Positions 43,072 to 59,293 of a stretch of 64,000 nucleotides of DNA are shown here, piece after piece (position 1 is the first letter of the stretch; the number at the start of each line of letters is the position of its first letter). The translations under genes were made by a program, and so were the position numbers. A model generated the notes under the pieces. The model did not search any database. It saw nothing but the letters and a program-made list of their open reading frames with translations, and had not been told where the DNA came from. Source of the stretch: Homoserinibacter sp. GY 40078 (GTDB lineage Bacteria > Actinomycetota > Actinomycetes > Actinomycetales > Microbacteriaceae); assembly GCF_008017545.1 (NCBI RefSeq), contig NZ_VRTZ01000001.1, forward strand, positions 957,741 through 1,021,740, read 5' to 3'.

Positions 43072-43072
43072 C

Positions 43073-44329: not shown

Positions 44330-45490
44330 TTAGCGGAACGCGTCGATCCCCGTCAGGCGCCTCCCGATGATGAGGGTGTGCACCTCGTCGGTGCCCTCGT
44401 ACGTCCTCACGCTCTCGAGATTGCTCGCGTGTCGCAGGGGTGAGTACTCCGACGAGATGCCGTTGCCGCCGAGGATCGTCCGGGCGGTCCGGCAGATCCT
44501 GATCGCTTCGCGGGTGTTGTTGAGCTTGCCGATCGAGATCTGCTCGGGGGTGAGGCGACCCGACTCCTTGAGGCGCCCCAGCCTGAGGGCGAGCATCGTG
44601 CCCTTCTCCAGCTCGAGCGACATGTCGACGAGCTTGGCCTGCGTGAGCTGGAAGCCGGCGATCGCGCGCCCGAATTGGCGACGGTCAGAGGAGTACCTGA
44701 GTGCCGTCGTCAAGCTGTCGCGGGCAGCACCCATGACACCCCACGCGATGCCGTATCGCGCCTCGTTGAGGCAGCGGAACGGGGCTCCCAGGCCGCGGGC
44801 TTCCGGCAGTATCGAATCTCCGGGGACGCGCACATCGTCGAGTGCGATGTCGCATTGCACCGACGCGCGCATCGACAGCTTCCCGGCGATCGGCGTCGCC
44901 GCGAACCCAGGCGCCGTTGTGGGCACGATGAAGCCCCGGATCCCGTCGTCGGTCTTGGCCCAGATGACCGCGACGTCCGCGATGGACGCGAGGCCGATCC
45001 AGCGTTTGCGTCCGGAGATCACCCAGTCGCCGCCGTCGCGTCGCGCGTAGGTGGACATCCCGGACGGATCGGATCCCGCATCCGGTTCGGTGAGTCCGAA
45101 GCAGCCGATGACCTCTCCGCGCGCCATCTCGGGGAGCCACCTGTTCCGTTGATCCTCGCTGCCGAACATGCGGATCGCTCCCATCGCGAGCGAGCCCTGG
45201 ACGCTGAGGAACGTGCGGAGCCCTGAGTCGCCCGCTTCCAGCTCGAGCGCGGCGAGGCCGTACTCGACCGCGCCCCTTCCGGCGCATCCGTAGCCGTCGA
45301 GGTGCATCCCGAGCAATCCGAGTCGGGCGAGCTCCGGAACGAGCTCACGCGGGAAGTGCGCCGACTCGTACCACTCGGCGATGTTCGGTCGCACATGCTC
45401 GTCGACGAGGGCACGGACATCGCTCCGCAGCGAGCGTTCGTTCGCCGTCAGGTCCGCGTCGAGGTCGAGAAGGTCAAGAGGATCTTGCAT
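44330..45490 (-). CDS. glutaryl-CoA dehydrogenase-like acyl-CoA dehydrogenase
   Basis: A 386-residue FAD-dependent acyl-CoA dehydrogenase. Similarity to glutaryl-CoA dehydrogenase is strong: GYGCAGRGAVEYGLAALELE, the Arg in GLRTFLSVQGSL that binds the distal carboxylate in that enzyme, NEARYGIAWGVMGAARDSL, and the catalytic base Glu in VRTYEGTDEVHTL. A dicarboxylyl-CoA substrate, perhaps with decarboxylation, is therefore likely. It is the last gene of a three-gene unit with a CoA-transferase (17-bp overlap) and a cyclase-fold hydrolase. A longer open frame upstream overlaps the CoA-transferase and is not used. Confidence 0.9.
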   Translation of the reverse strand: MQDPLDLLDLDADLTANERSLRSDVRALVDEHVRPNIAEWYESAHFPRELVPELARLGLLGMHLDGYGCAGRGAVEYGLAALELEAGDSGLRTFLSVQGSLAMGAIRMFGSEDQRNRWLPEMARGEVIGCFGLTEPDAGSDPSGMSTYARRDGGDWVISGRKRWIGLASIADVAVIWAKTDDGIRGFIVPTTAPGFAATPIAGKLSMRASVQCDIALDDVRVPGDSILPEARGLGAPFRCLNEARYGIAWGVMGAARDSLTTALRYSSDRRQFGRAIAGFQLTQAKLVDMSLELEKGTMLALRLGRLKESGRLTPEQISIGKLNNTREAIRICRTARTILGGNGISSEYSPLRHASNLESVRTYEGTDEVHTLIIGRRLTGIDAFR

Positions 45491-46700
45491 CAGCACTCCA
45501 TGTCGTCGGGGGAGAGGGACGGGGGTCGCCAGCGTCGGCGAGCCACTCGCGCAGCTCGTCGTCGTGCTGTCCGAGGGTCGGCGGTGCGTGCCGTTGAGGT
45601 GGAAAAGCAGGCTTCCACGTGATCGGAGAACGCACTTGCCGCGTCGTGGCGCCCTCATCATCGACGACCTCGATGAGGGGTTCGAGGCCCAGTTCGTCGG
45701 CGAGAGCGAGCCCACTCGAGACGGTCCCTACACGCCCGACGGGAACCCCCGCGTCTGCGATGATCTGCTCCCACTCGTCCGCGCCCGCCGAGGCGAGCAA
45801 CCGCTCGAGCTCGCGTCGGAGGTCCTCCCGGTGCGCTACCCGGTTCTCGTTGCCGACATAGCGTGGGTCGCCGGCGAGCTCGGGCGCACCCAGCGAGCCG
45901 CACAATCTCGCGAACTGAGCGTCGGTGCCGCAGGCGACGACGATCTCGCCGTCGGCGCAATGCAGCAGCTCGTACGGGCTGATGGACGGGTGGGTGTTTC
46001 CGAGGGCACGAGGTTCTGTGCCGGCGCTCAGGAAGCCCTGCACCTGATTGACGAGGGCCGACTGGACACTCGAGAGGAGGTTGACTTCGATGTGTGCACC
46101 TTCACCAGTGCGCGTGCGTGCGTGCAGCGCGGCGAGCACGCCGATTGCCGCATCCTTTCCTGTGAGCACGTCGACCACCGCGACGCCTGACTTCGTGGGT
46201 TCGCCCGGCGGACCTGTGATGCTCATCAGGCCGCCGACGGCCTGTGCCAGCAAGTCGTATCCCGGGCGCAGTCGACCAGCTGGCGCGGATCCGAATCCGG
46301 AGATCGAGACGTAGATCACACCCCGCTTGTGGCTGCGCAGCTGCTCGAATCCGAGCCCGAACCGCTCCATCGTTCCGCTGCGGAAGTTCTCGACGACCAC
46401 GTCCGCACGAAGCGCGAGGGCCAGCGCGCGGTCGCGGTCGGCCGGCGAGTTCAGGTCGAGTCGAACGGACCGCTTTCCCCGATTGACGCTGTCGAAGTAG
46501 CTCGATCCCCTCGGCGTGAACGGCGGGCCCCAGCTGCGCGTGTCGTCTCCGCGGGTGGGGTGCTCGACCTTGATCACCTCGGCACCGAGGTCGGCGAGCA
46601 TCATCGTGCAGAGCGGTCCGGCGAGTACGCGCGAGAAGTCTGCGACCAGCACCCCCTGCAGCGGGGGCGCCCCGGCAGGGGCAGCCTCCGGAGCCGTCAC
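45474..46700 (-). CDS. CaiB/BaiF (class III) CoA-transferase
   Basis: A 408-residue class III CoA-transferase. The N-terminal LVADFSRVLAGPLCTMMLADLGAEVIKVE, RSWGPPFTP, NRGKRSVRLDL and the GYDLLAQAVGGLMSITG segments are diagnostic; the catalytic Asp is expected near residue 165-175 (VAVVDVLTGKDAAIG). Next to a glutaryl-CoA dehydrogenase-like gene it resembles the glutarate CoA-transferase (SUGCT)/GCDH pair and probably activates a free di-acid with CoA from a donor such as succinyl-CoA. It starts with GTG overlapping the cyclase stop by four bases. Confidence 0.9.
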   Translation of the reverse strand: MTAPEAAPAGAPPLQGVLVADFSRVLAGPLCTMMLADLGAEVIKVEHPTRGDDTRSWGPPFTPRGSSYFDSVNRGKRSVRLDLNSPADRDRALALALRADVVVENFRSGTMERFGLGFEQLRSHKRGVIYVSISGFGSAPAGRLRPGYDLLAQAVGGLMSITGPPGEPTKSGVAVVDVLTGKDAAIGVLAALHARTRTGEGAHIEVNLLSSVQSALVNQVQGFLSAGTEPRALGNTHPSISPYELLHCADGEIVVACGTDAQFARLCGSLGAPELAGDPRYVGNENRVAHREDLRRELERLLASAGADEWEQIIADAGVPVGRVGTVSSGLALADELGLEPLIEVVDDEGATTRQVRSPITWKPAFPPQRHAPPTLGQHDDELREWLADAGDPRPSPPTTWSADARSS

Positions 46701-47671
46701 CTGAGCGCGAGCGCGTTGCCGGGGGATCCCGAGCCTCCGCGCATCGTGAGGGGGGCTGCGGTCAGCAGCCCGTCGTACCTACGGTCGACGGCGCAGGCTT
46801 CGGCGAGCGGTCCCAGCACGAAGAACTCGCCGATCGTGAGGCCGAGGAGCGGGATAAGGCGGTAGTGAAGGAAGCCGTCCCAGTCGTCGAAGGTGAACGG
46901 GGAGGCCTCGAGGGCGGGCGTGTCCGATGCGACGGCGGCGAGCCCGTGATCCCAAATCCATTCCGCGCTGTCGCGACTCGACTCGAGGCCAGGAGTTCGC
47001 ATCCGCATGGCCCGCGAGTCGGCCGCCAAGGATGTCCGCGCCGCCGAGTCGAGGCCCTCGTACCATTCGATCCACCCGGTGCGCAGCAGCAGGATGTCGC
47101 CCTCTTCCAGCTTCGAGCCCTGCCACGCGAGCGCGGCGTCCAGCTCGGCGGGCGTGATGATGTCTCGTGCCGCATTGTCGACACGGCGGCCGATGCTCTC
47201 GCGGTACCGACCGATGTCGAGGAGCACGTAGCGCCCCGCGATCCCGGATGCAGCCGCATTGGCGATGCTGAGCATCAGCCGGGCCGGGTCGTGCACGTCT
47301 CGTTCGGTGCGCCCGTTGTAGAACTCTCCGTCGGGCGTGCCGACGTGCGACAGGGCGTCCCACTGCGTGGACGACTGGCTGTAGTAGCTCTCGTAGCGGT
47401 CATCCGTGCCGGCGTGCACGTCGCCGAGGTCGATCACCACGTGCTTCAGCGGCTTCCGCTCGAAGAACGTCGGATCGGGAAGGGTCATGTCCCAATTGAG
47501 TGAGTAGGTCGTGCCGTCGACCACCGCGTCCAGGCCCCGCCTGCGTGCGGCCGGGCTGAGCAGATTGAGCGTACCGAGTTCGTCATCGTCCCCGAACACG
47601 CCCCACGCGCTGCGTTCTTCGCTCCCGGGATGGAAGCGAAGTTCCCCGAATCTCGGGATGCGTCGCGTCAT
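46697..47671 (-). CDS. cyclase-family (kynurenine formamidase-fold) metal-dependent hydrolase
   Basis: A 324-residue member of the cyclase/kynurenine formamidase superfamily. The metal-binding motif appears as STQWDALSHVGTPDGEFYNG, a variant of HxGTHxDxPxH in which the first His is replaced, as in one branch of the family. Later strands ILLLRTGWIEW and the C-terminal VDRRYDG region fit. Members hydrolyse amides or lactone-like rings. It is the first gene of the minus-strand triple with CoA-transferase and acyl-CoA dehydrogenase, so it may release the acid that these activate. AGGAGGT precedes the ATG; a palindrome shared with the divergent operon lies 27 bases upstream. Confidence 0.85.
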   Translation of the reverse strand: MTRRIPRFGELRFHPGSEERSAWGVFGDDDELGTLNLLSPAARRRGLDAVVDGTTYSLNWDMTLPDPTFFERKPLKHVVIDLGDVHAGTDDRYESYYSQSSTQWDALSHVGTPDGEFYNGRTERDVHDPARLMLSIANAAASGIAGRYVLLDIGRYRESIGRRVDNAARDIITPAELDAALAWQGSKLEEGDILLLRTGWIEWYEGLDSAARTSLAADSRAMRMRTPGLESSRDSAEWIWDHGLAAVASDTPALEASPFTFDDWDGFLHYRLIPLLGLTIGEFFVLGPLAEACAVDRRYDGLLTAAPLTMRGGSGSPGNALALR

Positions 47672-47697
47672 GGGTACCTCCTGGCGTCATCGACAGT

Positions 47698-47711
47698 TGA
47701 GCGAATGCTCA
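47698..47711. promoter_or_regulatory. operator palindrome, cyclase promoter
   Basis: TGAGCGAATGCTCA, with 5-bp TGAGC/GCTCA arms, lies 27 bases upstream of the cyclase start. It differs at a single central base from the palindrome before the ABC operon (48794), so the same regulator probably acts at both. Confidence 0.7.
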
Positions 47712-47769
47712 TGCGGGATTTTGTCACATGACGGTTCGCTCCGCAAAGTGCACGAAGCGTCGACGACGT

Positions 47770-48705
47770 TCAGCGCAACAAGAGCTCTGCAGTCGCAGCA
47801 TCCGTGGCGAAGAAGGTCGCATATCCACCGGAGAGGGCCCCCTGGATCGCGCCGATCTTCTTCTCACCTACCGCGACGCACACCCTCGTCGGGATTCGCG
47901 CCAGCTCGTCGAGCGTGATCGAGATGCATCGAGCGGACAGCTCGAGCGTGCACGGTCGACCGTCGGCATCGTAGAACTGCCCGCAGATCTCGCCCACCGC
48001 CCCGTCTCGTCGTCCCGCATCGAGATCGCGATCGACGATGAGTCCGGCCTTGTACAGTCCGGAGTCGATCGACGGCGTGTCGAGGCTGAAGACGGCGACG
48101 TCGGCGCGGCGGGCGGCGTCGAGCACTCGCCTCATCCCGGTGTCTCCGGCCAGGATCTCCCTGATCTCCGGTGTGTCCACATAGAGGGGTGCTGAGAGGG
48201 TGAGCTGATCGCACGACCACGCCTCCGCCATCACGGTGGCCACGGATTCCGGCCTGCCCGAACCGGATGCGCCCAAAGCGCTTCCGTTCATCTGAACGAC
48301 GAGCATCTGGTTGTGCGCTGTACGGGGGAGCCCGTAGGCGAACTCCAGGATGGTGCGTCCCCACGCGACGGCGACTCGCTCCGACCCGTCCAGCCGACCG
48401 GCGATCATTCGGGCGGCCGCCCGGGCGGCCAGCCGGGTGCGCTCTGCGAGGCTCGACTCCTCGTCGGTCTCGACGACTCGTACCTCGGGGATGCGATAGC
48501 GGCGCGAGAGCTCGTCCTCGAGCCAGACGACGCTCTGAGCGGGAGGGCGCACCTCGATGTGCACGATCCCCTCCGTCATTGCCTGCCCCAGCAATCGCGA
48601 GACGCTCTGGCGTGACATGCCGACGCGCCGAGCGATCGCATCCTGGTTCAGCTGGTCGATGTAGTACATGCGAGCGATTCGAACGAGAAGCTCTACGTCG
48701 GCCAT
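47770..48705 (-). CDS. SorC-family sugar-binding transcriptional regulator
   Basis: A 311-residue regulator. An N-terminal helix-turn-helix (about residues 20-45, DAIARRVGMSRQSVSRLLGQA) precedes a SorC sugar-phosphate-binding domain with typical VAVAWGRTILEFAYGLP, LSAPLYVDTPE, GEICGQFYDADGRP and GEKKIGAIQGALSGG motifs. SorC members usually sense a phosphorylated sugar made by the pathway they control. The ATG at 48705 follows GGAGACC. It is divergent from the ABC/catabolic operon, and the palindrome TGAGCGnATGCTCA before both arms of the island is its likely target. Confidence 0.92.
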   Translation of the reverse strand: MADVELLVRIARMYYIDQLNQDAIARRVGMSRQSVSRLLGQAMTEGIVHIEVRPPAQSVVWLEDELSRRYRIPEVRVVETDEESSLAERTRLAARAAARMIAGRLDGSERVAVAWGRTILEFAYGLPRTAHNQMLVVQMNGSALGASGSGRPESVATVMAEAWSCDQLTLSAPLYVDTPEIREILAGDTGMRRVLDAARRADVAVFSLDTPSIDSGLYKAGLIVDRDLDAGRRDGAVGEICGQFYDADGRPCTLELSARCISITLDELARIPTRVCVAVGEKKIGAIQGALSGGYATFFATDAATAELLLR

Positions 48706-48774
48706 CGGTCTCCGTTCCTGGTGTGCACGTCGAATCCTAGCCGCGGAGGCCTGCTCATACGCGCCATCGCGCAC

Positions 48775-48805
48775 TTGCGAGCATCTACCCATATGAGCGT
48801 ATGCT
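48775..48805 (+). promoter_or_regulatory. promoter of the ABC/catabolic operon
   Basis: TTGCGA (48775-48780) and TATGCT (48800-48805), spacing 19. The -10 lies inside the operator palindrome, so bound regulator would block polymerase. Confidence 0.45.
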
Positions 48806-48807
48806 CA
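48794..48807. promoter_or_regulatory. operator palindrome, SorC/ABC operon intergenic region
   Basis: TGAGCGTATGCTCA, nearly identical to the site at 47698. A half-site GCTCA follows at 48820. It lies between the divergent regulator and binding-protein genes. Confidence 0.72.
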
Positions 48808-48879
48808 GGATGCGGTGACGCTCATTCGACATCGCACGACGTTCGAGAGTGAACTGACAGAACGCATTTCAAGGAGGAA

Positions 48880-49845
48880 ATGGTGAAGAAGTGGATGACA
48901 GCAGCGGCATCATTGGCCGTGGCGGCCCTGGCTCTCGCGGGATGCTCGTCCGGCGATGACCCGAACGGCGGTGATGACACGGTCGAGGTCGGGATCATCA
49001 CCTTCTCGGCGACAGACGTAGCCGTCAACAATCTGGTGCGTGGCGCCGAGGAGCAGGCGGAGGCGCTCGGGTACACGACCTCAGTCGTGGACTCGAACGG
49101 CAGCGTCGACCAGGCCAACACCGCGATGCAGAACCTCGCGCAGAAGGGCGTCGACGCGATCCTCGTGACGGTGTGGCCGTCGTCGGCCCTCGCCTCCGGT
49201 CTCGCGAGCGCCAGCGCCGCGGGCATCCCGGTGGTCACCCTCGGCGGAGGCCTTGCCGACGGGGTGAAGCTCTCGGTCGACGACTCCCTCAACGAGCCGG
49301 TCGCCGAATACGTCATGGGGAAGATCCAGCCCGGAGCCGACGTGCTGAAGCTGACATACCGCTCCGGACGCCCGTGCCAGCTTCGCGAGGACGCTTTCGA
49401 TGCCGCCGTCGCTGACCAGAATTACACGGTGACGCAGCAGGAGGTCACGATCCCCGGCCAGGTCGAGTCCTCGCAGGCCGCGACAGTCGCCTGGCTGGCC
49501 GCGAATCAGGTGGCCCCCGGGACCAGTGCCATCTGGACATGCTGGGACGACTCGGCCCTCGGCGCGATCGCCGGCCTCAAGCAGCAGGGACTCGAGCCCG
49601 GAGACGTCTTGGTGACCGGTACGAACGGCACGAAGGAGGCGCTCACCGCGATCCAGGAGGGGTGGCTCACGGTCACGCTCTGGATCGATCACTACGGGGC
49701 GGGCAAGCAGCTCGTCGACGGCATTCAGGAGATCCTCGCGGCTGGCGACGGCTGGGAGGACAAGGAGATCGAGGCGAACTACGAGATCGTCGATGCCTCG
49801 AACGTCGACCAGTTCATCGCCGATCACCCCGAGATCACGGGCTGA
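48880..49845 (+). CDS. sugar-type ABC substrate-binding lipoprotein
   Basis: A 321-residue lipoprotein of the RbsB/LsrB-type periplasmic binding family (Peripla_BP_4). A signal peptide ends at LAGC (Cys about residue 23). The mature domain starts VEVGIITFSATDVAVNNLVRGAEEQA and has the family segments NLAQKGVDAILVTVWPSS and WDDSALGAIAGLKQQGL. A perfect AAGGAGGA sets the ATG. It is the first gene of a nine-gene operon; a stem-loop before the next gene may keep its own message abundant. Ligand unknown, probably a sugar or polyol. Confidence 0.9.
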   Translation: MVKKWMTAAASLAVAALALAGCSSGDDPNGGDDTVEVGIITFSATDVAVNNLVRGAEEQAEALGYTTSVVDSNGSVDQANTAMQNLAQKGVDAILVTVWPSSALASGLASASAAGIPVVTLGGGLADGVKLSVDDSLNEPVAEYVMGKIQPGADVLKLTYRSGRPCQLREDAFDAAVADQNYTVTQQEVTIPGQVESSQAATVAWLAANQVAPGTSAIWTCWDDSALGAIAGLKQQGLEPGDVLVTGTNGTKEALTAIQEGWLTVTLWIDHYGAGKQLVDGIQEILAAGDGWEDKEIEANYEIVDASNVDQFIADHPEITG

Positions 49846-49857
49846 CACCGAACGCTG

Positions 49858-49887
49858 GGGCCGGCCTCTCGGAACGGGGGCCGGCCC
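49858..49887 (+). terminator. intra-operon stem-loop after the binding-protein gene
   Basis: A 9-bp stem (GGGCCGGCC at 49858 with its complement at 49879-49887) and 12-base loop lie in the 58-base gap. Such hairpins after binding-protein genes commonly attenuate read-through or protect the upstream message. Confidence 0.6.
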
Positions 49888-49903
49888 AGTGCAGGAGAGC
49901 ATC

Positions 49904-51448
49904 ATGACCATTGATGACGCCCCGGGTTCCGCGGGTTCGGAAGAGCTGATCCGCGTGAGGGGGCTCCACAAGCAGTACGGTGCCGTCCACGCGCTCCGCG
50001 GTGTCGATCTCGCGGTCCGCCCCGGAGAGGTTCACGGCCTCGTGGGTGCCAACGGCGCCGGGAAGTCGACGCTGATCAGGATCCTCGCCGGGCTGGAGCG
50101 CCCCGACGCGGGAACGATCCAGGTGCGCGGCGAGATTGTTCGAATCCGCACCACCGACGACGCCACCGATCACGGCTTCAGCTTCATCCACCAGGAGCTG
50201 AACCTCATCCCCGACTTCACCGTGCTCCAGAACCTCGTCCTCGGTCGCGAGCAGAACGTCGGTGGCTTCCTCAGGCGGAACGCGATGCGACGCAAGGCTC
50301 AGCGAGTGTCAGAGGAGCTCTCGTTCGGCTTCTCGCTCGACGTGAAGACACGAGATCTCAGCGTTCCGGACCAGTGGCTCGTCTCGATCGGGCGTGCTCT
50401 CGTCAACGATGCGCGGCTGATCGTGATGGACGAGCCGACGGCGTCGCTGTCGGCGGAGGAGACCTCTCGTCTCTACGCGATCATCGAGCAGCTCAGTGCC
50501 GCCGGTGTCGCCATCCTCTACGTGTCTCACCGACTCGACGAGGTGGTGCGCCTGTGCGACACCGTCACCGTCTTCAAGGACGGTTCCGTCGTCGCCGAAC
50601 TGGCGGGAGAGACGTTGACGAAAGACGAACTCGTGCGCCACATCGTCGGCCGCTCGCTCGAGGGCACCTCCGCGGTGTCCGCAGGGGGATCTGATGCGGG
50701 CGAGGTCGTGCTGGCGATCCAGGACCTGGTGCAGCTGCCTTCGGTGCGGGGCATGTCGCTCACCGTGCGACGCGGCGAAGTGGTCGGGATCGCGGGCCTC
50801 GTCGGGTCCGGGAGGACCGAACTCGCGAAGCTCATCTTCGGGGAGACCCGCCCGGACTCGGGAACCATGGAATACCGCGGGGCGCCCCACCAGCCGCGCT
50901 CGTGCGCGGAAAGCATCGCGCGAGGGATCGCGCTGGTGCCGGAGGAGCGCCGAGCCGAGGGTGTGCTCCTTGAGAAGAGCATCGCCTTCAACCTCACGCT
51001 CCCGGCTCTACGGCGATTCCAGATCTCTCCCTGGTTCCCGCTGCTTCGGATGGGCGCCGTTCAGGAGCGGGCTCGCGAGGTGGCACGACAGTTCACGGTG
51101 AAGCTGAACTCGGTCGCCGACCGTGTCGACACACTGAGCGGCGGCAACCAGCAGAAGGTCGTGATGGGCAAGTGGTTCACTGCCGGTCGCGTCGATCTGC
51201 TCATCCTCGACGAGCCCACCAAGGGCGTCGATGTCGGGGCTCGTGCGGAGATCTACCGAGCGATCAGACAGTTCGCGAGCGAGGGGATGGCGGTGCTCGT
51301 CATCTCCTCCGAATTCGATGAATTGACCATCTGCGATCGCGTGGTCGTGATGGTCGAAGGACACGATGTCGGCGATGTCGCCGGCGATCAGATCAGCGAG
51401 GAGTACCTCCTCGAGATGTGCTATGCGAAAGGCGTGCAGGACAAATGA
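49904..51448 (+). CDS. sugar ABC transporter ATP-binding protein (two ABC domains)
   Basis: A 514-residue RbsA/LsrA-like protein with two ATPase domains in tandem. The first has Walker A GANGAGKST and Walker B RLIVMDEPTASLS, but its signature region reads LSVPDQWLVSIGRAL instead of the usual LSVxxxQ. The second lacks a proper Walker A (GLVGSGRTE), as is usual in this family, and keeps LSGGNQQK and LLILDEPTKGVDVG. GCAGGAG sets the ATG at 49904. It overlaps the permease start (ATGA) and powers uptake with it. Confidence 0.92.
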   Translation: MTIDDAPGSAGSEELIRVRGLHKQYGAVHALRGVDLAVRPGEVHGLVGANGAGKSTLIRILAGLERPDAGTIQVRGEIVRIRTTDDATDHGFSFIHQELNLIPDFTVLQNLVLGREQNVGGFLRRNAMRRKAQRVSEELSFGFSLDVKTRDLSVPDQWLVSIGRALVNDARLIVMDEPTASLSAEETSRLYAIIEQLSAAGVAILYVSHRLDEVVRLCDTVTVFKDGSVVAELAGETLTKDELVRHIVGRSLEGTSAVSAGGSDAGEVVLAIQDLVQLPSVRGMSLTVRRGEVVGIAGLVGSGRTELAKLIFGETRPDSGTMEYRGAPHQPRSCAESIARGIALVPEERRAEGVLLEKSIAFNLTLPALRRFQISPWFPLLRMGAVQERAREVARQFTVKLNSVADRVDTLSGGNQQKVVMGKWFTAGRVDLLILDEPTKGVDVGARAEIYRAIRQFASEGMAVLVISSEFDELTICDRVVVMVEGHDVGDVAGDQISEEYLLEMCYAKGVQDK

Positions 51449-52434
51449 CCCTCACAGACACACAGCGCCGCAGCCCCGGTTCCCGGCTGCTGCCGTTCGT
51501 CGCGAAGTACGGCACCTTGGTCGTGCTCGTCTCGATGATCATCGGGCTGTCGATCGCGGCGCCGAGATCGTTCGCGACTCCGGACAACTTCCTGAACATC
51601 CTGAGCCAGATCTCGCTGACCGCGATCATCGCCGCGGGTCTCACCTTGCCGCTCGCCGTCGGTGAGTTCGACCTGAGCGTCGGATATCAGGCGAGCCTCG
51701 GTGGAGTGCTCGTCGTGGGACTGATCACGCGGCAAGGACTCCCGATCCCCGTCGCCATCGGCGTGGTCGTGCTCGTGGGTGCACTGATCGGCGTCGTCAA
51801 CGGTCTCGTCGTCACCAAGCTCGGAGTGAACGCACTCGTGGCGACACTCGGCACGGGAACGATCGTCGTCGGACTCAACTACGCGTACTCGGGCGGGATC
51901 CCAGTGGCCGGCCTCGATGCGTTCCCCGAGTTCACAGCGATCGCGCAGGGGAAGATCGGGGGGCTCTCCAACACGGTCCTCATCATGGCGGGGGTCCTCG
52001 CGATTCTCTGGATCGTCCTGAACCGGACCGTGCTCGGGCAGCACATCCAGGCGGTGGGCGGCAACCGCCATGCCGCCCGCCTCGCGGGGGTTCGCGTCGA
52101 TCGGGTGCGCATCGCCGCGTTCGCCATCGCGGGTGTCTGCGCTGTGATCGCCGGACTCCTTCTCGCGTCGCGCGTCGGCAGCGGTCAGATCACCGCGGGT
52201 GACGGCTATCTTCTGAACTCCTTCGCTGCGGTATTCCTCGGATCCGCCGCGCTTCGCGACGGCGAGTTCCACATCCTCGGAACCTTCATCGGTGTCCTCA
52301 CGGTCGGCGTCGGCTTCAACGGTCTCGCGATCCTCGGTGCGCCGACCTTCGTCCAGTTCCTCTTCTCGGGGGGTCTGCTCATCATGGCCGTCGCGCTCAG
52401 CACGGTCGCCCGGCGATACGCGGTCAAGCGATGA
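51445..52434 (+). CDS. sugar ABC transporter permease
   Basis: A 329-residue RbsC-type permease with about eight to ten helices. The segments AAGLTLPLAVGEFDLSVGYQ and VNGLVVTKLGVNALVATLGTG and the coupling loop TVLGQHIQAVGGNRHAARLAGV are diagnostic. Only one permease gene is present, so the channel should be a homodimer. Start and stop overlap the neighbours by ATGA junctions. Confidence 0.92.
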   Translation: MTLTDTQRRSPGSRLLPFVAKYGTLVVLVSMIIGLSIAAPRSFATPDNFLNILSQISLTAIIAAGLTLPLAVGEFDLSVGYQASLGGVLVVGLITRQGLPIPVAIGVVVLVGALIGVVNGLVVTKLGVNALVATLGTGTIVVGLNYAYSGGIPVAGLDAFPEFTAIAQGKIGGLSNTVLIMAGVLAILWIVLNRTVLGQHIQAVGGNRHAARLAGVRVDRVRIAAFAIAGVCAVIAGLLLASRVGSGQITAGDGYLLNSFAAVFLGSAALRDGEFHILGTFIGVLTVGVGFNGLAILGAPTFVQFLFSGGLLIMAVALSTVARRYAVKR

Positions 52435-53117
52435 GCGGGCTGCCGGCGGAGGTGGACGAGGCGCGTGCCGAGGTCGTCCACTTCGCTCGCCGTATGGTGA
52501 CGGATCGGCTGGTCCGAGGAACCTCGGGCAACATCTCCCGACGGGTCGGTCAGTTTGTGGCCATCACTCCCGGTGCCGTCGAGTACGACGTGCTGACCGA
52601 CGAGGACGTCGTCGTCATGACCGTCGGCGGCGATCGGGTCGCGGGTCGACGAAACCCCTCATCGGAGACGCCTCTGCATCTGGGAATCTATCGCCGGACG
52701 CCCGCATCGGCCGTGGTCCACACCCACTCGACCTTCGCGACCGTCGTCGGGGTGGTCGCCGAGGAACTGCCGAGCGTGCATTACATGACCGCGTCGATGG
52801 GGCCGGGCGCCGTGCCCGTCGTGCCGTACTCCCGCTACGGCTCCGAGGAGCTCGCTCGCTCGGTCGGGGAGGCGCTGGCAGATCGCTCGGCCGTCCTCAT
52901 GGGCAACCACGGGGCCGTCGCCCATGGAGCGAGCCTGCTCCAGGCCTACAACCGGGCACAGAACCTGGAGTGGATGTGTGAGGTCTTCGTGAACTCGATG
53001 TCGATCGGCGCCCCCCGGCTGCTCGGAGACGCCGAGATCGGGATGGTCGCCGAGCGCATGAGGACGCGCGGCTACCTGGGCTCGGTAGAACCGATCGGAG
53101 AGGGGGAAGCCCGGTGA
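52431..53117 (+). CDS. class II aldolase/adducin-family protein
   Basis: A 228-residue zinc-dependent class II aldolase related to L-fuculose-1-phosphate aldolase and AraD epimerase. The phosphate-binding GTSGNISR, the catalytic Glu in NPSSETPLHLG, the zinc His pair in VVHTHSTFA and the third His in LMGNHGAVAHG are all present. It could cleave a ketose phosphate into dihydroxyacetone phosphate plus an aldehyde, or decarboxylate a 3-oxo acid phosphate as OtnC does. The FGGY kinase two genes on would provide its phosphorylated substrate and the aldehyde dehydrogenase could take its product. Confidence 0.9.
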   Translation: MSGLPAEVDEARAEVVHFARRMVTDRLVRGTSGNISRRVGQFVAITPGAVEYDVLTDEDVVVMTVGGDRVAGRRNPSSETPLHLGIYRRTPASAVVHTHSTFATVVGVVAEELPSVHYMTASMGPGAVPVVPYSRYGSEELARSVGEALADRSAVLMGNHGAVAHGASLLQAYNRAQNLEWMCEVFVNSMSIGAPRLLGDAEIGMVAERMRTRGYLGSVEPIGEGEAR

Positions 53118-54091
53118 CGACCATCCTGATCACGGCGCCGTTCGATGGCGCCCAGCTCGACCGACTGCGCGAGATCGCGACCGTCGTATACCGTCCGTGG
53201 ACCCCACTCGGTCGTCCGCACTCCGAGGAAGAGCTCGGGGCGATGCTCGCCGAGACCGGGGCGAATGTGCTCGTGGTGGAGCTCGATCCCGTCGGCGCGC
53301 ACACGATCGCGAACGCGAGTCTGGAGATCATCGGCGGATGCCGCGCGCGGCTCGTCAACATCGACGTCGAGGCAGCGCAGGCGGCGGGCATCGTGGTGCT
53401 CCACACTCCGGGACGGAACGCTCATGCGGTCGCCGAGTATGTGGTGGCGATGATGGTCGTCCTGATGCGCAACATCGTTCCATCGACCGACTTCGTGCTC
53501 GGGGACGCCTGGCAGCAAGGCGATCGACCGTATCTGCGCTTCCGGGGCGACGAGCTCGGCGGCCGTACGGTCGTGTTCCACGGCTATGGGGCGGTCCCGC
53601 GCGTGGTCACCGAGCTGCTGCGTCCTTACCGGTGCCGGCTGATCGCCGTCGACCCGTTCGTCGATCCGAGTTCGCTGCCGGCCGGAGTGGAAGCGATGAC
53701 GGCCGAGGAGGCGTACCCCATCGCGGACGTCCTGTCCGTGCACCTGCCCGTGGCGAGGGCGACCGAGCGCCTCATCGATGCCCGCCTGTTGTCGCTCCTG
53801 CCGACATCGGCGCGGGTGATCAACAGTGCGCGGGCGGCGGTCATGGACTACGACGCCCTGGCCGACGCCCTCTCGACGGGAAGAATCGCGGGTGCGGCCC
53901 TCGACGTCCTGCGGGACGAACCGCTCGGAGAGCGTGATCGCGCGCTCGTATCACTCCCCAACGTCGTGGTGACACCGCACATCGCCGGCGCGAGCCATCA
54001 GGTCGAGCAGCACCACTCCCGGCTGATGGCGGACGCTCTGATCGCGGCCATCCGAGACGAGCCGCTCCCGGCAGGTGCGCGTGTCGAGTGA
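53114..54091 (+). CDS. D-isomer-specific 2-hydroxyacid dehydrogenase family protein
   Basis: A 325-residue NAD(P)-dependent oxidoreductase of the phosphoglycerate dehydrogenase-like family. The Rossmann motif is HGYGAVPRVV rather than the usual GLGxIG, keeping G-x-G but with Pro after the third turn residue. The catalytic Arg (VINSARAAVMDYDAL), Glu (LDVLRDEPLGE) and His (TPHIAGASH) regions are recognisable. It starts with GTG inside the aldolase stop. Substrate probably a 2-hydroxy or 2-oxo acid of the pathway. Confidence 0.87.
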   Translation: MTTILITAPFDGAQLDRLREIATVVYRPWTPLGRPHSEEELGAMLAETGANVLVVELDPVGAHTIANASLEIIGGCRARLVNIDVEAAQAAGIVVLHTPGRNAHAVAEYVVAMMVVLMRNIVPSTDFVLGDAWQQGDRPYLRFRGDELGGRTVVFHGYGAVPRVVTELLRPYRCRLIAVDPFVDPSSLPAGVEAMTAEEAYPIADVLSVHLPVARATERLIDARLLSLLPTSARVINSARAAVMDYDALADALSTGRIAGAALDVLRDEPLGERDRALVSLPNVVVTPHIAGASHQVEQHHSRLMADALIAAIRDEPLPAGARVE

Positions 54092-55526
54092 GACGAGCGC
54101 GACCGTCGTCATCGACGTCGGCTCCGGCTCCACTCGAGTCGGACTGGTGGATGGTTCGGGAACCCTCCTCAACGTATGGCGATTGCGCGTGCCGCTGCCG
54201 GTGCGGCCGAGCGCCCTCGGCCACGACGAGATCGGTCTCGAGGAGGTCCGAGATCGGGTGCGTGATCTGCTCGACGAGTGCGCGCGATTCTGCGCCGAGA
54301 CAGGTGTCACTCCCACGATGGTCACCTGCACGGGCATCCGCTACGCCTTCGTCGCGCTCGAGTCGGACGGCTCGCCGGTGCTGTCCTGGACGAACTCAGA
54401 TCGCTCCGCACACGAGATCGCCAAGGAGCTCGCACGCGCGACGGATGCGCAGACCGCGCTCGTGCTCGGGGGGAGGCCCACCGCTCTCAGCCTCGTCTCG
54501 CGCCTGTCCTCCCTGACATCGCGAGGGCACGTCCCGCATGGCTGGACGATCGTGACGCTGCATTCCTGGGTGCTCATGCAGCTGGGTGCCATCGCCCACT
54601 TCGACATCCTGAGCGCCGCCGACACCCGATCCCTCGACCTCGCCGACGCAACGTGGCGCGAGCCACTGGCCGGTGTCGGGGCGCCATTGGTCGCTCCCGG
54701 CGATGTGGTGGGCTCGATGGGAAGCGAGTGGCCGTGGCAGGGGGTTCCCCTGGCGGCGGCTCCAGGCGACACCTACGCGGCGGTCTTCGCATTCCCGGAT
54801 CTGCGTGAGGGGGACGTGGTGGTCGTCGCCGGAACGACGACCCCCGTCGTCGTGATCACAGACGCGATCCCGGAGCCCGAACCGGCTGCAGCCATCTGGA
54901 GCAGCATCGCGATCGGCGGGCGACGGCGGTGGCTCGGTGAGCGGAACGCCGGCCGAACCGGTCAGGGCATCGAGTGGGCTCGCCATCTCACCCGAACTGA
55001 CGCTGCGGACATCGATGCGGTGGCCTCGTCGGCGCACCCCGGTGCGGGAGGTGTGGCGGTCTATTTGGGGCAGTCCGTCGCTGCACCCACCGACTTCGGC
55101 AACTCGAGCGGCCCCCACGTCGTCTCGCTTCCTGGCCGCGAGATCGCCCAGGCTGACCGGGCCGCGTTGCTGCGGGCGTGTCTCGAGGCAAACGCCTGGG
55201 CCGCTGGGCATCACGCGAACAGCCTGCTCGCGCTCCAGGTGGCTGCCGACCAGCGTGTTCTGGTCTGCGGCGGCCAAGTGCACTCCGACGTGTTCCTGCG
55301 CAGCCTTGCGTTCGCCGTCGATGCGCCCCTGTTCGCGGGCGAACCGGACGCGAGCATCCTCGGATGCGCGCGGATCGCGAGCGGTGCCGGCTCGAGTGCC
55401 GGTGCGGTCGACACGCCGCTCCGCGGCGTCGAGCCCTATCCGCGCTCCGATGATCTCGCGAACGCTCGCGACGGTTGGCTGACGAAGCTGCTGCAAGAGC
55501 GGGAACCGCACGGGGTGGGTCGGTGA
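54081..55526 (+). CDS. FGGY-family carbohydrate kinase (divergent)
   Basis: A 481-residue sugar kinase. The N-terminal phosphate loop is VVIDVGSGSTRVGLVDGSG; the catalytic Asp is in AAPGDTYAAVFA (about residue 235); the C-terminal ATP site has VLVCGGQVHSDVFLRSLAF and GCARIASGAG. The region that usually reads WxDxR is SWTNSDRSAHE, so substrate recognition may differ from known xylulo-, fuculo- or erythritol kinases. GTG at 54081 follows GGCAGG; a GTG two codons earlier is possible. It overlaps the dehydrogenase by 11 bases. Confidence 0.87.
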   Translation: MSSETSATVVIDVGSGSTRVGLVDGSGTLLNVWRLRVPLPVRPSALGHDEIGLEEVRDRVRDLLDECARFCAETGVTPTMVTCTGIRYAFVALESDGSPVLSWTNSDRSAHEIAKELARATDAQTALVLGGRPTALSLVSRLSSLTSRGHVPHGWTIVTLHSWVLMQLGAIAHFDILSAADTRSLDLADATWREPLAGVGAPLVAPGDVVGSMGSEWPWQGVPLAAAPGDTYAAVFAFPDLREGDVVVVAGTTTPVVVITDAIPEPEPAAAIWSSIAIGGRRRWLGERNAGRTGQGIEWARHLTRTDAADIDAVASSAHPGAGGVAVYLGQSVAAPTDFGNSSGPHVVSLPGREIAQADRAALLRACLEANAWAAGHHANSLLALQVAADQRVLVCGGQVHSDVFLRSLAFAVDAPLFAGEPDASILGCARIASGAGSSAGAVDTPLRGVEPYPRSDDLANARDGWLTKLLQEREPHGVGR

Positions 55527-56386
55527 GCGCGCGACCACAACCCGGGCGAGCGGCGGCCGACGAGGTGCCGAGGATCCGTCTCGCGTCAGGCTCCGAGATG
55601 CCGCAGCTAGGGCTTGGGCTCTATGCGATGACCGACGACGAGGCGACGCGGACGATCGAGCGTGCGACGGAGCTCGGGTACCGCGCGTTCGACACCGCGT
55701 CGATCTATCGCAACGAGGCCGGCGTGGGCAGGGGCCTCGCTGGCAGCGGCCTTCCTCGGGATGATGTATTCGTTGCCACGAAGCTGTGGAACGACGATCA
55801 TCCGCGGGATCGTGTTCGCCCGGCCCTGGAGGCCAGCTTGGATCGTCTCGGTCTCGACTACCTCGACCTCTTCCTGATCCACTGGCCAGCCGCCCAGGGC
55901 GGTTCCCGACTCTACCTGGAGGCATGGGAGGAGCTCCTCGGGGCTCGTCGCGACGGGCTCGTCAGGAGCGTCGGCGTGTGCAACTTCGCGGCCGAGCACC
56001 TCGCCGAGATCGACTCGGCCGAACTCGAGGCACCGGAACTCAATCAGGTCGAACTGCATCCTCTCCACCAGCAGCGCGCGTTGCGCACCATGCACCTCGC
56101 GCGAGGGATCGTGACCCAGGCTTGGGCGCCGCTCGCGCGCGGAAAGGCGCTCGCATCTCCTGTGGTCGAGGCGGTCTCCCTCGAGACAGGACGGACGCCG
56201 GCTCAGGTGGTGCTCCGATGGCACCTGCAGTCAGGGTTCTCCGTGATCCCCAAGTCGTCCGATCCGGGACGGCTCGCCGAGAACATGGCGGTGTTCGACT
56301 TCGCGCTCACCCAGGAGCAGATGGATCGCATCGACTCGGCCGAGACGGGCGAGCTGACCGACGTGGCGTTGCTGCGTTTCCTATGA
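55523..56386 (+). CDS. aldo/keto reductase
   Basis: A 287-residue NADPH-type aldo/keto reductase, close to the 2,5-diketo-gluconate reductase group. The catalytic tetrad is visible: Asp and Tyr in FDTASIYRNE, Lys in FVATKLWNDDH and His in LFLIHWP; the coenzyme-binding FSVIPKSSDPGRLAEN follows. The GTG start overlaps the kinase stop (GTGA). It may reduce an aldehyde intermediate or oxidise a polyol. Confidence 0.92.
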   Translation: MSARPQPGRAAADEVPRIRLASGSEMPQLGLGLYAMTDDEATRTIERATELGYRAFDTASIYRNEAGVGRGLAGSGLPRDDVFVATKLWNDDHPRDRVRPALEASLDRLGLDYLDLFLIHWPAAQGGSRLYLEAWEELLGARRDGLVRSVGVCNFAAEHLAEIDSAELEAPELNQVELHPLHQQRALRTMHLARGIVTQAWAPLARGKALASPVVEAVSLETGRTPAQVVLRWHLQSGFSVIPKSSDPGRLAENMAVFDFALTQEQMDRIDSAETGELTDVALLRFL

Positions 56387-56404
56387 CGACATGGAGAGGA
56401 ACCC

Positions 56405-57169
56405 ATGACGATTGAGCAGAGGACGAGAAATTCGGTCGTCGGGCAGATCGCCCTGGTCACCGGCGGCGCCCAGGGGATCGGTCTCGCGACCGCGACCCTC
56501 CTCTCGCAGAACGGGGCGAGGGTGGTGATCGTCGATACGCAGCATTCCAGCGGAGCGGCGAGCGCCGCCGGCATCGGCGCGGGCTTTATCGCCGCGGACG
56601 TGACCGACACATCGGCCGTCGACGACGCCGTCGACGCCGTCTTGTCGGAGTACGGTTCGCTCGACATCGCGGTCAATTGCGCTGGCATCCGGCACTCCTC
56701 CCCGGGCATCTCGATTACCGACGACGACTGGGCGCATGTTCTCGACGTCAACGCGCACGGCGTGCTTCGCGCATGTCGTGCCGAGGGGCGCGTCATGCTC
56801 CAGCAGGGCGGGGGCTCGATCGTGAACATCGCATCGATGTCGGGAAGCATCGTCAACGTGCCGCAGGCGCAGGCGGTCTACAACGCCTCGAAGGCCGCCG
56901 TCATCCTGCTCACCAAGTCGCTCGCCGTCGAATGGGCTCCCTTCGGTGTCCGCGTGAACAGCGTGTCACCGGGCTACGTCGAAACCGCGCTGACCGCCCA
57001 GAGCCGTGCGAACCCGGAGCGCCTCTCCGAGTGGCTGCACCGGACGCCCATGGGTCGAATCGCTCAGCCGGAGGAGATCGCATCCTGTGTCGAGTTCCTC
57101 GCGAGCGATGCGGCTTCGTTCGTGACCGGACACGACCTGCTCGTCGACGGCGGATATACAGCCGCGTGA
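56405..57169 (+). CDS. SDR-family oxidoreductase
   Basis: A 254-residue classical short-chain dehydrogenase. The cofactor motif is TGGAQGIGLA (about residue 19), with an Asp at the end of the second strand (VVIVDTQ) that favours NAD+. The structural motif is NCAG, the catalytic Ser lies in NIASMSGS and Tyr/Lys in YNASKAAV. GGAGAGGAA sets the ATG. In this operon it is a good candidate for oxidising an incoming polyol or sugar. Confidence 0.93.
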   Translation: MTIEQRTRNSVVGQIALVTGGAQGIGLATATLLSQNGARVVIVDTQHSSGAASAAGIGAGFIAADVTDTSAVDDAVDAVLSEYGSLDIAVNCAGIRHSSPGISITDDDWAHVLDVNAHGVLRACRAEGRVMLQQGGGSIVNIASMSGSIVNVPQAQAVYNASKAAVILLTKSLAVEWAPFGVRVNSVSPGYVETALTAQSRANPERLSEWLHRTPMGRIAQPEEIASCVEFLASDAASFVTGHDLLVDGGYTAA

Positions 57170-57194
57170 ATCGGCACAGGGGAAGGGATAGCAG

Positions 57195-58631
57195 ATGAGA
57201 ACCTATGACCTGCTCATCGACGGGCGGTGGTCGGCCCCATCAGACGGTGAGTTCATCGAGGTCGTGAACCCTTCGACCGGCGAGGTCTGCGCGCGAACGG
57301 CGCGGGCGACTGCGGACGATCTGGATCGCGCGCTTGACTCGGCCGCCGGTGGATGGGAGCGCTGGCGGAGCAGATCGGGGTGGGAGCGATCGTCGGTGCT
57401 TCGAGCTGCGGCATCACTTCTTGCGGCGCGAGCGGACGCCGTCGCCGAGACGATCACGAGGGAGCAGGGCAAGCCGCTGCGCGAGGCGCGCCTCGAGGTC
57501 GCCCTCGCCATCGAGCAGCTCGACTGGTGCGCCGACGAAGCGCGCCGCATCTACGGGCGCACCATGGAGGCGCCGTCGCCGAGCATCCGATACCGGGTGG
57601 AGCGTGCTCCGGTCGGACCGGTGGCGGCATTCACGCCGTGGAACTTCCCCATTTCGCTCGCCGCGCGCAAGATAGGCCCGGCTCTGGCGGCAGGTTGCTC
57701 GATCATCGTGAAGCCCGCCGAAGAGGCCCCCGGTGCCGCGATCGCCCTGGCCGAGTGCCTCGTGGAGGCCGGCGTCGACGAAGGCGCGCTGGTGATCGTG
57801 ACCGGGGATCCCGTGCAGATCAGCGACCACCTCGTCTCGTCTCCGATCATCCGCAAAGTGAGTCTCACCGGATCCGTGCCGGTGGGGCGGCGCGTGATGG
57901 AACTGGCCGCCCGCAACATCTCCGCGGTTTCGATGGAACTGGGAGGCCACGCACCGGTCGTCGTCTTCGGCGACGTGGATCCCGTCGAAGTGGCCCGCGC
58001 CTGCGTCACCGGCAAGTTCCGCAATGCCGGACAGGTGTGCATCTCCCCCACCCGCTTCTACGTTCAGGATGAGATCGCGGCGGAGTTCAGCGCGGCGTTC
58101 GTCGAGGCGACCGCTGCGCTTCGCGTCGGAGATGGAATGGACGAGTCGACACATGTCGGCCCGCTCGCGAGCGGTCGTCGGCGCGACGCCGTCCACTCGG
58201 TCGTCGAACAGGCGGCCCGAGCGGGAGCCTCGCTCGTGCTGGGCGGGCGCCCCATTGACGGACCGGGGTTCTACTACGAGCCGACCGTCCTCACGGGGCT
58301 CGCCGACGACGCTGCTCTCATGCAGGAGGAGCCGTTCGGACCGGTCGTGCCGATCGCGAGCTTCTCCACCTTCGACGACGTCATCGCCAAGGCGAACTCG
58401 ACGCGATACGGTCTCGCGGCGTACGTCTTCACGCGCGACCTGGGCCTCGCGACTCGGGCGGCCGAGCAGATCGAGGCCGGGCTTGTCGGCATCAACACCT
58501 TCGCCGTCAGCGCGACGCCCGTTCCGTTCTCCGGGGTCAAACTCTCGGGCATCGGCGCCGAGAACGGCGCGGAGGCGATCGAGGGTTACCTGGTGACCAA
58601 GTCGATCGTCACGTCTGTCGGGGAGCCATGA
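57195..58631 (+). CDS. NAD(P)+-dependent aldehyde dehydrogenase
   Basis: A 478-residue aldehyde dehydrogenase similar to succinate-semialdehyde, lactaldehyde and glycolaldehyde dehydrogenases. PWNFPISLAARKIGPALAAG and KPAEEAPGAA form the cofactor site, the general base Glu is in SMELGGHAP (about residue 248) and the nucleophile Cys in AGQVCISPTRF (about residue 281). It is the last gene of the island operon, ending 71 bases before purN. It probably oxidises the aldehyde released by the aldolase. Confidence 0.93.
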   Translation: MRTYDLLIDGRWSAPSDGEFIEVVNPSTGEVCARTARATADDLDRALDSAAGGWERWRSRSGWERSSVLRAAASLLAARADAVAETITREQGKPLREARLEVALAIEQLDWCADEARRIYGRTMEAPSPSIRYRVERAPVGPVAAFTPWNFPISLAARKIGPALAAGCSIIVKPAEEAPGAAIALAECLVEAGVDEGALVIVTGDPVQISDHLVSSPIIRKVSLTGSVPVGRRVMELAARNISAVSMELGGHAPVVVFGDVDPVEVARACVTGKFRNAGQVCISPTRFYVQDEIAAEFSAAFVEATAALRVGDGMDESTHVGPLASGRRRDAVHSVVEQAARAGASLVLGGRPIDGPGFYYEPTVLTGLADDAALMQEEPFGPVVPIASFSTFDDVIAKANSTRYGLAAYVFTRDLGLATRAAEQIEAGLVGINTFAVSATPVPFSGVKLSGIGAENGAEAIEGYLVTKSIVTSVGEP

Positions 58632-58702: not shown

Positions 58703-59293
58703 GTGCTGCGCCTCGTCGTCCTCATCTCGGGGGGCGGGTCCAACCTCCGTGCCCTGCTCGAGGCCGCGCAGAGCCCTGAATTCCCGGCGCGCGTCGTCGC
58801 TGTCGGTGCTGATCGGCAGGCCGATGGCCTCGGTCACGCCGAGGAGTTCGGCATCTCCTCGTTCGTCGTGCCGTTCACCTCGTACCCGTCGCGCGAAGAG
58901 TGGGGCGACGAGCTCCTCGCCCAGCTGCGCGAGTGGCAGCCCGACGTCGTGATCCTCTCGGGCCTCATGCGGCTGCTGCCGCATCAGGTGGTCGAGGCGT
59001 ACAGCCCCGCGATCGTCAACACGCATCCGGCCTACCTGCCGGAGTTCCCCGGAGCCCATGCCGTCCGCGACGCGATCGCGGCGGGCGCCTCCGAGACGGG
59101 CGCGAGCGTCATCGTCGTCGACGACGGCGTCGACACGGGCCCGATCCTGCACCAGCGCCGGGTGCCCGTCCTGCCGGACGACACCGAGGCGACGCTCCAC
59201 GAACGCATCAAGCCCGTGGAGCGGGCGCTGCTCATCCAGACCGTCCTCGACATCGCGGACGGCACCATCGATCTCGAGGAGTATTCCGCGTGA
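58703..59293 (+). CDS. purN: phosphoribosylglycinamide formyltransferase PurN
   Basis: A 196-residue 10-formyl-THF-dependent GAR transformylase, the third step of purine synthesis. The GAR-binding [15 protein letters not shown] and the catalytic region MRLLPHQ ... [20 protein letters not shown] (with the conserved Asn and His), plus the Asp in [11 protein letters not shown], are intact. Its stop overlaps purH by four bases. Confidence 0.96.

Follow-up and report, generated by a model that had tools for sequence, protein, structure and literature searches.

Catabolism of L-fucose and L-rhamnose combines an isomerase, an FGGY carbohydrate kinase, a class II aldolase and a lactaldehyde dehydrogenase. 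A 14-kb gene island located between perM and purN in Homoserinibacter sp. GY 40078 (Microbacteriaceae) was compared with this and other described systems. The island was analyzed within a window of 64,000 nucleotides (contig NZ_VRTZ01000001.1, positions 957,741 to 1,021,740), whose own numbering is used below, and consists of 13 genes, 12 catabolic or transport genes and a SorC-family regulator (Table 1). The plus-strand arm encodes, in order, a substrate-binding protein, a two-domain ATPase and a permease of an ATP-binding cassette (ABC) importer, a class II aldolase, a D-2-hydroxyacid dehydrogenase (2-HADH), an FGGY kinase, an aldo/keto reductase (AKR), a short-chain dehydrogenase/reductase (SDR) and an aldehyde dehydrogenase (ALDH), while the minus-strand arm encodes SorC, a cyclase-family hydrolase, a class III coenzyme A (CoA)-transferase and a glutaryl-CoA dehydrogenase. 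The FGGY kinase, class II aldolase and ALDH are shared with L-fucose/L-rhamnose catabolism; the island differs by the lack of an isomerase and by the additional 2-HADH, SDR, AKR, cyclase, CoA-transferase and glutaryl-CoA dehydrogenase. An earlier note on this DNA, made from the sequence alone, had remarked on the missing sugar isomerase, and Pfam and NCBIfam returned no isomerase-family match among the 13 island proteins. Membership in a FucI/FucK/FucA-type pathway was rejected on this ground, though the FGGY and aldolase motifs are intact.

As described by Beaudoin et al. (2018, PMC6079011), the 5-deoxyribose or dihydroxyacetone phosphate (DHAP) shunt uses an MtnK-type kinase (or a phosphorylase) and an MtnA-type isomerase and ends in a FucA-type class II aldolase that yields DHAP and an aldehyde. 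The island aldolase is likewise FucA-type, whereas the MtnK and MtnA families are unmatched in the island. Membership in the shunt was rejected, with neither an MtnK-type kinase or methylthioadenosine phosphorylase nor an MtnA-type isomerase matched. An Lsr (autoinducer-2) assignment was also rejected, with the LsrK model scoring 31.6 bits (cut-off 528) and LsrF and LsrG unmatched. The parts of the island are known families. No description of the enzyme set was recognized in the titles and abstracts found in the open-access literature (subscription journals were beyond the scope), consistent with the earlier note, which knew of no described pathway with these enzymes.

The insertion was examined by seeking perM and purN in 60 related genomes. 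perM was located in 57 of the 60, and the perM-purN gap was tabulated for 37 genomes of the family, this one included, with 23 genomes of other families left out of the table. The distance between the two matches was only 9-135 bp in all eight congeners and below 700 bp in 32 of the 37 family genomes. The five larger gaps were 14,382 bp in this genome, 10,177 bp in G031, 5,093 bp in G022, 1,863 bp in G013 and 762 bp in G011. Furthermore, the island kinase had no match at E 0.001 in any of the eight congeners, and the same 13 genes are not fixed in relatives. The island is lineage-specific and inserted relative to its kin, which bears out the insertion claimed in the earlier note. GC content at third codon positions was 0.785-0.879 in the island genes versus 0.909-0.940 in purN, purH and the next ABC gene; the contrast is weak on the perM side because perM itself has a value of 0.854. 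Best identities found for the transport proteins were 51% for the binding protein (in one Chloroflexota contig, L107; otherwise 35-43%) and 61% for the permease, and those for the enzymes were 43% (2-HADH), about 55% (SDR), 50% (cyclase), 59% (CoA-transferase) and 69% (glutaryl-CoA dehydrogenase). The block was most likely acquired from outside the lineage. Pfam scans detected no integrase among the 13 island proteins, the window contained no tRNA, and the boundary stretches shared no word of at least 10 bases, i.e. no flanking repeat. Origin as an integrative mobile element is unsupported, with no integrase, tRNA target or flanking direct repeats.

More than 5 kb separates perM from purN in three of the 37 family genomes, this one included. 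The G031 junction (L038, G031:C9:9000-21500) contains a LacI regulator, a GH92 mannosidase and a HAD phosphatase, and that of G022 (L039, G022:C1:1245000-1252500) contains ABC-transporter genes. In this family the perM-purN junction takes up unrelated metabolic cargo, other genes being seen there in two further genera, and it is possibly an insertion hotspot.

A search with the 2-HADH covered 296 genomes of the phylum. All 26 matches besides its own at E 1e-40 were extended, selected by 2-HADH similarity alone; as a control, 19 other 2-HADH matches from six genomes gave 17 loci (one match lay inside another locus and one was left out). Among the 20 closest relatives, 19 had an FGGY kinase gene at a distance of 0-271 bp from the 2-HADH match, compared with one of six weaker relatives and one of the 17 control loci, the latter being a gluconate-type cluster of this same genome. 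A class II aldolase was present in the same loci in 8/20, 1/6 and 1/17 cases, respectively, and 12 of the 19 FGGY-bearing loci had no detected class II aldolase, some loci being cut by contig ends. In a tree of 51 2-HADHs, the island enzyme falls inside a clade of 28 rows (support 95/94), 27 of which have an FGGY gene in the locus (the exception is L099). Six of the 28 (L033, L037, L044, L054, L055 and L059) were picked partly for context, and one context-chosen 2-HADH, L221, lies outside the clade. The nearest 2-HADH in the tree is that of Enterococcus raffinosus (support 94/92, long branches). The island 2-HADH belongs to this FGGY-neighbouring clade and has its own FGGY gene adjacent. The pairing is widespread and apparently undescribed; no open-access paper joining the terms FGGY and hydroxyacid dehydrogenase was found.

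Catalytic residues are conserved in the kinase and in the aldolase. In the FGGY kinase, D14, G16, D109, D232, G253 and G399-G400 are invariant in seven aligned proteins, at positions that we take to carry the functional roles of the family motifs. In the aldolase, E79, H97, H99 and H160 are invariant in six aligned proteins and are presumably the zinc-binding and catalytic residues. The best NCBIfam model for the aldolase is ribulose-1-phosphate aldolase (188 bits, cut-off 300), with fuculose-phosphate models also near. Among 398 family genomes, the kinase found, besides itself, FGGY matches of 24-35% identity in 15; no close relative was detected in 396 genomes of the order (one other match, 27%) or among plasmids, and none of 37 pattern matches among genome contigs was confirmed. 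The kinase was given up as a probe for related islands and the binding protein and 2-HADH were used instead. The FGGY matches of G073, G030, G195, G082, G198, G191, G498 and G093 were rejected as island relatives: at E 1e-8, a 2-HADH lay near FGGY in G198 alone and no class II aldolase was detected in any of them; G093 has SorC-like and importer genes without a 2-HADH at the same threshold. Beyond the window, this genome contains a second FGGY kinase-2-HADH pair (L255, G000:C1:1341600-1360600) together with a GntP permease, a GntR regulator, an SDR, 6-phosphogluconate dehydrogenase and a class III CoA-transferase, a cluster that probably serves gluconate or keto-gluconate use.

Several gene clusters resemble the island in part. 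In a haloarchaeon, a Halomarina sp. PSR21 plasmid cluster (L055, 8170-19597) appears from its genes to contain the core of the island: class II aldolase, FGGY kinases, an AKR that shares 38% identity with that of the island, and a 2-HADH that belongs to the same clade as the island enzyme. It differs in being archaeal and in having two aldolase domains in one open reading frame (ORF), two FGGY kinases and a MalK-type importer, and cyclase, CoA-transferase and glutaryl-CoA dehydrogenase were not detected in it. Plasmid p3 of Tritonibacter mobilis (L220:1515-13162) shares a SorC-type regulator, a ribose-type importer, an FGGY kinase and an SDR (48.6% identical), whereas an acetoin-dehydrogenase-like complex replaces the aldolase, 2-HADH and ALDH, and two SDRs are present. 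Operons of Paracoccus and Sagittula, like the island, join class III CoA-transferase, 2-HADH, class II aldolase and FGGY kinase; they differ by another ABC importer, an IclR regulator and extra thiamine diphosphate (ThDP)-dependent and molybdopterin enzymes, and no cyclase or glutaryl-CoA dehydrogenase is annotated in the stretches examined. In these operons (L054:6174-17001, L056 and L059), three CoA-transferase genes accompany the 2-HADH, aldolase, FGGY kinase, ThDP enzyme and molybdopterin oxidoreductase. The Enterococcus raffinosus plasmid (L037:7638-16670) contains MtnK, MtnA and a class II aldolase along with 2-HADH and FGGY, which suggests that two routes converge on a single aldolase.

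Searching with four aligned binding proteins yielded 94 confirmed relatives, and counts for the importer family refer to the best 80 of these 94. A gene of the metallo-beta-lactamase fold resembling "AHL lactonase" (acyl-homoserine lactone lactonase) was found at most 4.5 kb away in 65 of the 80 loci, and a cyclase-family gene like that of the island in six. Either hydrolase was present in 71 loci and neither in nine, three of the nine being on contigs that end less than 900 bp from the match. The cyclase gene lies inside the importer operon in L109 (50% identical to the island's) and in L164 (48%). This pairing with the importer family elsewhere suggests that the reverse-arm cyclase probably acts on the compound that the island importer brings in. 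Among the importer loci, L109 additionally encodes a fucose-isomerase-like protein and an FGGY kinase, an FGGY kinase adjoins the importer in L278, and a DhaK-type gene is present in L151 and L173, with DhaL as well in L173. Set against what we take to be the positions of E. coli RbsB, the island binding protein seemingly lacks the Asp-Arg pair and has three Gly at these places, invariant in the four aligned proteins, a lead rather than a test. A widespread operon of LacI, importer and metallo-beta-lactamase-fold hydrolase, mostly in Rhizobiales (L107-L186; e.g. L034:11932-16284 and L035:11947-16305), was recovered, on which no paper was found in the open-access literature. These operons share the importer family with the island (binding protein approximately 36-43%, permease 52-60%) and a lactonase-like hydrolase; they differ in that kinase, aldolase and 2-HADH are rarely adjacent, the regulator is LacI and not SorC, and the hydrolase has the metallo-beta-lactamase and not the cyclase fold.

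A palindrome provides the strongest indication that the two arms form a unit. The exact pattern TGAGC-N4-GCTCA occurs at just two sites in the window versus 0.12 expected, and none of 100 shuffles reached two. One site is upstream of the cyclase gene and the other between sorC and the binding-protein gene, and the two differ by one base. When the two gaps were shuffled 2000 times (first order), no shuffle gave a palindrome of this kind common to both, and the exact pattern TGAGCGNATGCTCA was found in 3 of 284 loci compared, all three overlapping the island. Both exact sites fall in the promoter gaps of the island, of which there are two, and the arms therefore probably make up a single SorC regulon, which supports the single functional block seen in the earlier note. 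The palindromes would be the candidate operators to which SorC binds.

The remaining genes of the reverse arm point to an acid branch. The acyl-CoA dehydrogenase finds a glutaryl-CoA dehydrogenase as its best PDB match and keeps the Arg and Tyr-Glu positions of the human enzyme (1siq), which we take to be the signature of a decarboxylating glutaryl-CoA dehydrogenase. The CoA-transferase matched the NCBIfam succinate--glutarate CoA-transferase model at 323 bits, below the cut-off of 750, and is nearest to CaiB/SUGCT-type enzymes (PDB 4ed9, 275 bits; SUGCT 9br7, 252 bits). Judged from these likenesses, the pair may act on a short dicarboxylic acid by-product. Class III CoA-transferase adjoins glutaryl-CoA dehydrogenase in six of nine other loci, and of these six only that of the congener G001 has FGGY or SorC-like genes (E 1e-10). 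In G001 (L202:7345-16114), CoA-transferase, glutaryl-CoA dehydrogenase and a SorC-like gene lie together near an acyl-CoA dehydrogenase, an SDR and FGGY; this cluster is at another place in the genome, and its sequence is frameshift-broken and was matched in pieces.

We tentatively favor a reading in which SorC controls the whole island as a single regulon. Its substrate would be a compound derived from carbohydrate, entering the cell as a lactone or in a similar hydrolysable form of a sugar acid or polyol. The analysis itself establishes the inserted block with its gene families, the retention of catalytic residues by the kinase, the aldolase and the glutaryl-CoA dehydrogenase, the two pairings (2-HADH with FGGY, importer with hydrolase) and the palindrome common to both arms, whereas the substrate, the binding of SorC and the following order of reactions are inferred. 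The ribose-type ABC importer would bring the compound in and the cyclase-fold hydrolase would open it; the SDR, AKR and 2-HADH would set its oxidation state and the FGGY kinase would phosphorylate it. The class II aldolase would then cleave the ketose (or keto-acid) phosphate, probably into DHAP and an aldehyde, which the ALDH would oxidize, and the CoA-transferase and glutaryl-CoA dehydrogenase would remove a short dicarboxylic acid by-product. Regarding the substrate classes proposed in the earlier note, a polyol gains from the likeness of the SDR. A sugar acid or lactone is as well supported, in view of the lactonase-like hydrolases that accompany the importer family and because 2-HADH, FGGY and SDR also occur in the genome's own GntP cluster. 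A deoxy-sugar is neither favored nor excluded.

A number of observations weigh against this reading. The whole island gene set was found in no other genome. At the importer relatives, 2-HADH, FGGY and class II aldolase are scarce (2, 2 and 1 of 80 at E 1e-15), and the island therefore combines modules that are usually apart. In the other four of the six importer loci with a cyclase gene, its product shows only about 32-35% identity to that of the island and the gene lies 6.6-6.7 kb off in a beta-oxidation-like or acyl-CoA gene setting. Gln99, Gln103, Asp105 and His109 are invariant in the aligned cyclase subfamily, and the formamidase motif presumably has His at the first two of these positions, where the island has Gln; the metal site may differ from that of formamidase, and hydrolysis by the cyclase is therefore not assured. 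The island 2-HADH is on a long branch, and the kinase, at 20-23% identity to six aligned FGGY kinases, need not be their orthologue. As for the palindrome, it was spotted in the gaps ahead of testing, so that the test was not blind, and it was counted within the window; with two mismatches allowed there were five matches versus 1.67 expected, including two beyond the island at 2029 and 38858.

A plain polyol or deoxy-polyol route would account for a set without an isomerase: the SDR would form a ketose, the FGGY kinase a ketose 1-phosphate, the aldolase DHAP and glycolaldehyde or lactaldehyde and the ALDH glycolate or lactate, which the 2-HADH would oxidize. Such a route is in agreement with the best PDB matches of the SDR, a putative polyol dehydrogenase (3awd) and a galactitol dehydrogenase (2wdz), with an SDR of Deinococcus sp. 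QL22 that is 53% identical and adjoins mannitol dehydrogenase near an FGGY kinase, and with the aldolase models named above. We nevertheless regard it as rather unlikely. It leaves cyclase, CoA-transferase and glutaryl-CoA dehydrogenase unused despite an apparently common operator, and since the 2-HADH accompanies the kinase even in FGGY loci without a detected aldolase, a role on the final acid alone is unlikely. Two unrelated sets that arrived in one insertion, with the forward arm serving a sugar or polyol, the reverse arm glutarate and the cyclase a bystander, would fit both the retained glutaryl-CoA dehydrogenase signature and the loci in which its gene neighbours the CoA-transferase, FGGY or SorC-like genes being near in just G001. 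The palindrome common to the upstream regions of both arms, the cyclase accompanying the importer family elsewhere and the Paracoccus and Sagittula operons, whose class III CoA-transferases (38-41% identical to the island's) are joined to 2-HADH, aldolase and FGGY, all speak against such a division, which we consider unlikely.

Assimilation of keto-aldonates (2-keto-, 5-keto- or 2,5-diketo-gluconate-like), with AKR, 2-HADH and SDR reducing keto-acids, the FGGY protein acting as gluconokinase and the aldolase as a side activity, would explain the DkgA-like AKR, and L255 shows GntP, FGGY, 2-HADH, SDR and 6-phosphogluconate dehydrogenase together in the same genome. However, the island has neither 6-phosphogluconate dehydrogenase nor GntP, the L255 2-HADH falls outside the clade of the island enzyme, and the kinase matches no NCBIfam gluconokinase model at 1e-3, making this explanation improbable. 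Salvage of autoinducer-2 (Lsr-like) or of 5-deoxyribose (DHAP shunt) is very improbable: LsrK is the best, weak model for the kinase, and the nearest 2-HADH in the tree comes from the Enterococcus cluster with MtnK, MtnA and class II aldolase, but the island proteins gave zero LsrF/LsrG, MtnK or MtnA matches in Pfam and NCBIfam. The single-regulon reading and its rivals partly overlap, and our probabilities for them do not sum to one. A more speculative extension, which we hold distinctly improbable, would unite all 13 genes in one pathway for a lactone or ester with polyhydroxy and short-chain acid ends. The cyclase would open it, kinase and aldolase would yield DHAP and a semialdehyde, and ALDH, CoA-transferase and glutaryl-CoA dehydrogenase would lead on to crotonyl-CoA; the 2-HADH/FGGY pair would then be a general, undescribed entry step common to Actinomycetota, Pseudomonadota, Bacillota and haloarchaea.

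The island represents a compact test object for the pairing of FGGY kinases and this 2-HADH clade, which a class II aldolase often accompanies. Knowing the island's substrate would give the pairing a function and could show which ligand is recognized by a large importer family, most sampled members of which lie beside a lactonase-like enzyme.

Table 1. Island features and flanking genes, in window coordinates, with the matches on which each assignment is based.
Feature	Position	Strand	Basis or remark
perM (DUF6350), left flank	43010..44323	+	Pfam DUF6350 249 bits; 71-75% identity to 8 congeners
Glutaryl-CoA dehydrogenase-type acyl-CoA dehydrogenase	44330..45493	-	Start taken as ATG at 45493; PDB 3sf6 530 bits
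Class III CoA-transferase	45474..46700	-	Pfam CoA_transf_3 378 bits
Cyclase-family (PF04199) hydrolase	46697..47671	-	Pfam Cyclase 64.5 bits
Palindrome TGAGCGAATGCTCA, candidate SorC operator upstream of cyclase gene	47698..47711	.	Exact TGAGC-N4-GCTCA
SorC-family regulator	47770..48792	-	Likely true start 48705; Pfam Sugar-bind PF04198 203 bits
Palindrome TGAGCGTATGCTCA, candidate SorC operator, divergent promoter region of sorC and binding-protein gene	48794..48807	.	Exact TGAGC-N4-GCTCA
Substrate-binding lipoprotein, ribose-type ABC importer	48880..49845	+	Pfam Peripla_BP_4 105 bits
Two-domain ABC ATPase	49904..51448	+	ORF opens 49793, start judged 49904; Pfam ABC_tran, two stretches
ABC permease	51445..52434	+	ORF opens 51418; Pfam BPD_transp_2 130 bits; 51-61% to transporter family
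Class II (FucA-type) aldolase	52431..53117	+	Pfam Aldolase_II 162 bits
2-HADH, FGGY-neighbouring clade	53114..54091	+	Pfam 2-Hacid_dh_C 138 bits; tree
Divergent FGGY carbohydrate kinase	54075..55526	+	Pfam FGGY_C 30.9 bits (cut-off 27); FGGY_N no match
AKR, DkgA-like	55523..56386	+	ORF opens 55475; Pfam Aldo_ket_red 178 bits; NCBIfam DkgA 288 bits, cut-off 425
SDR, polyol-dehydrogenase-like	56405..57169	+	PDB 3awd 223 bits, 2wdz 193 bits
ALDH, succinate/alpha-ketoglutarate semialdehyde type	57195..58631	+	NCBIfam SSADH (succinate-semialdehyde dehydrogenase) 450 bits, cut-off 646; PDB 5x5t 451 bits
purN, right flank	58703..59293	+	NCBIfam PurN 189.5 bits, above cut-off
purH, right flank	59338..60876	+	NCBIfam PRK00881 701 bits, above cut-off

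The Pfam and NCBIfam matches of the 13 island proteins agree with the extent and gene list proposed in the earlier note. Promoter and terminator scans gave no excess over chance. The forward arm had been described as joined mostly by 4-base overlaps; this holds for four of its eight junctions (ATPase/permease, permease/aldolase, aldolase/2-HADH and kinase/AKR) and not for the other four, where the genes overlap by about 17 bases or are separated by 18-58 bases, with gene starts judged. The start of the FGGY kinase gene overlaps the end of the 2-HADH gene, and a further 4-base overlap joins the cyclase and CoA-transferase genes on the reverse arm.

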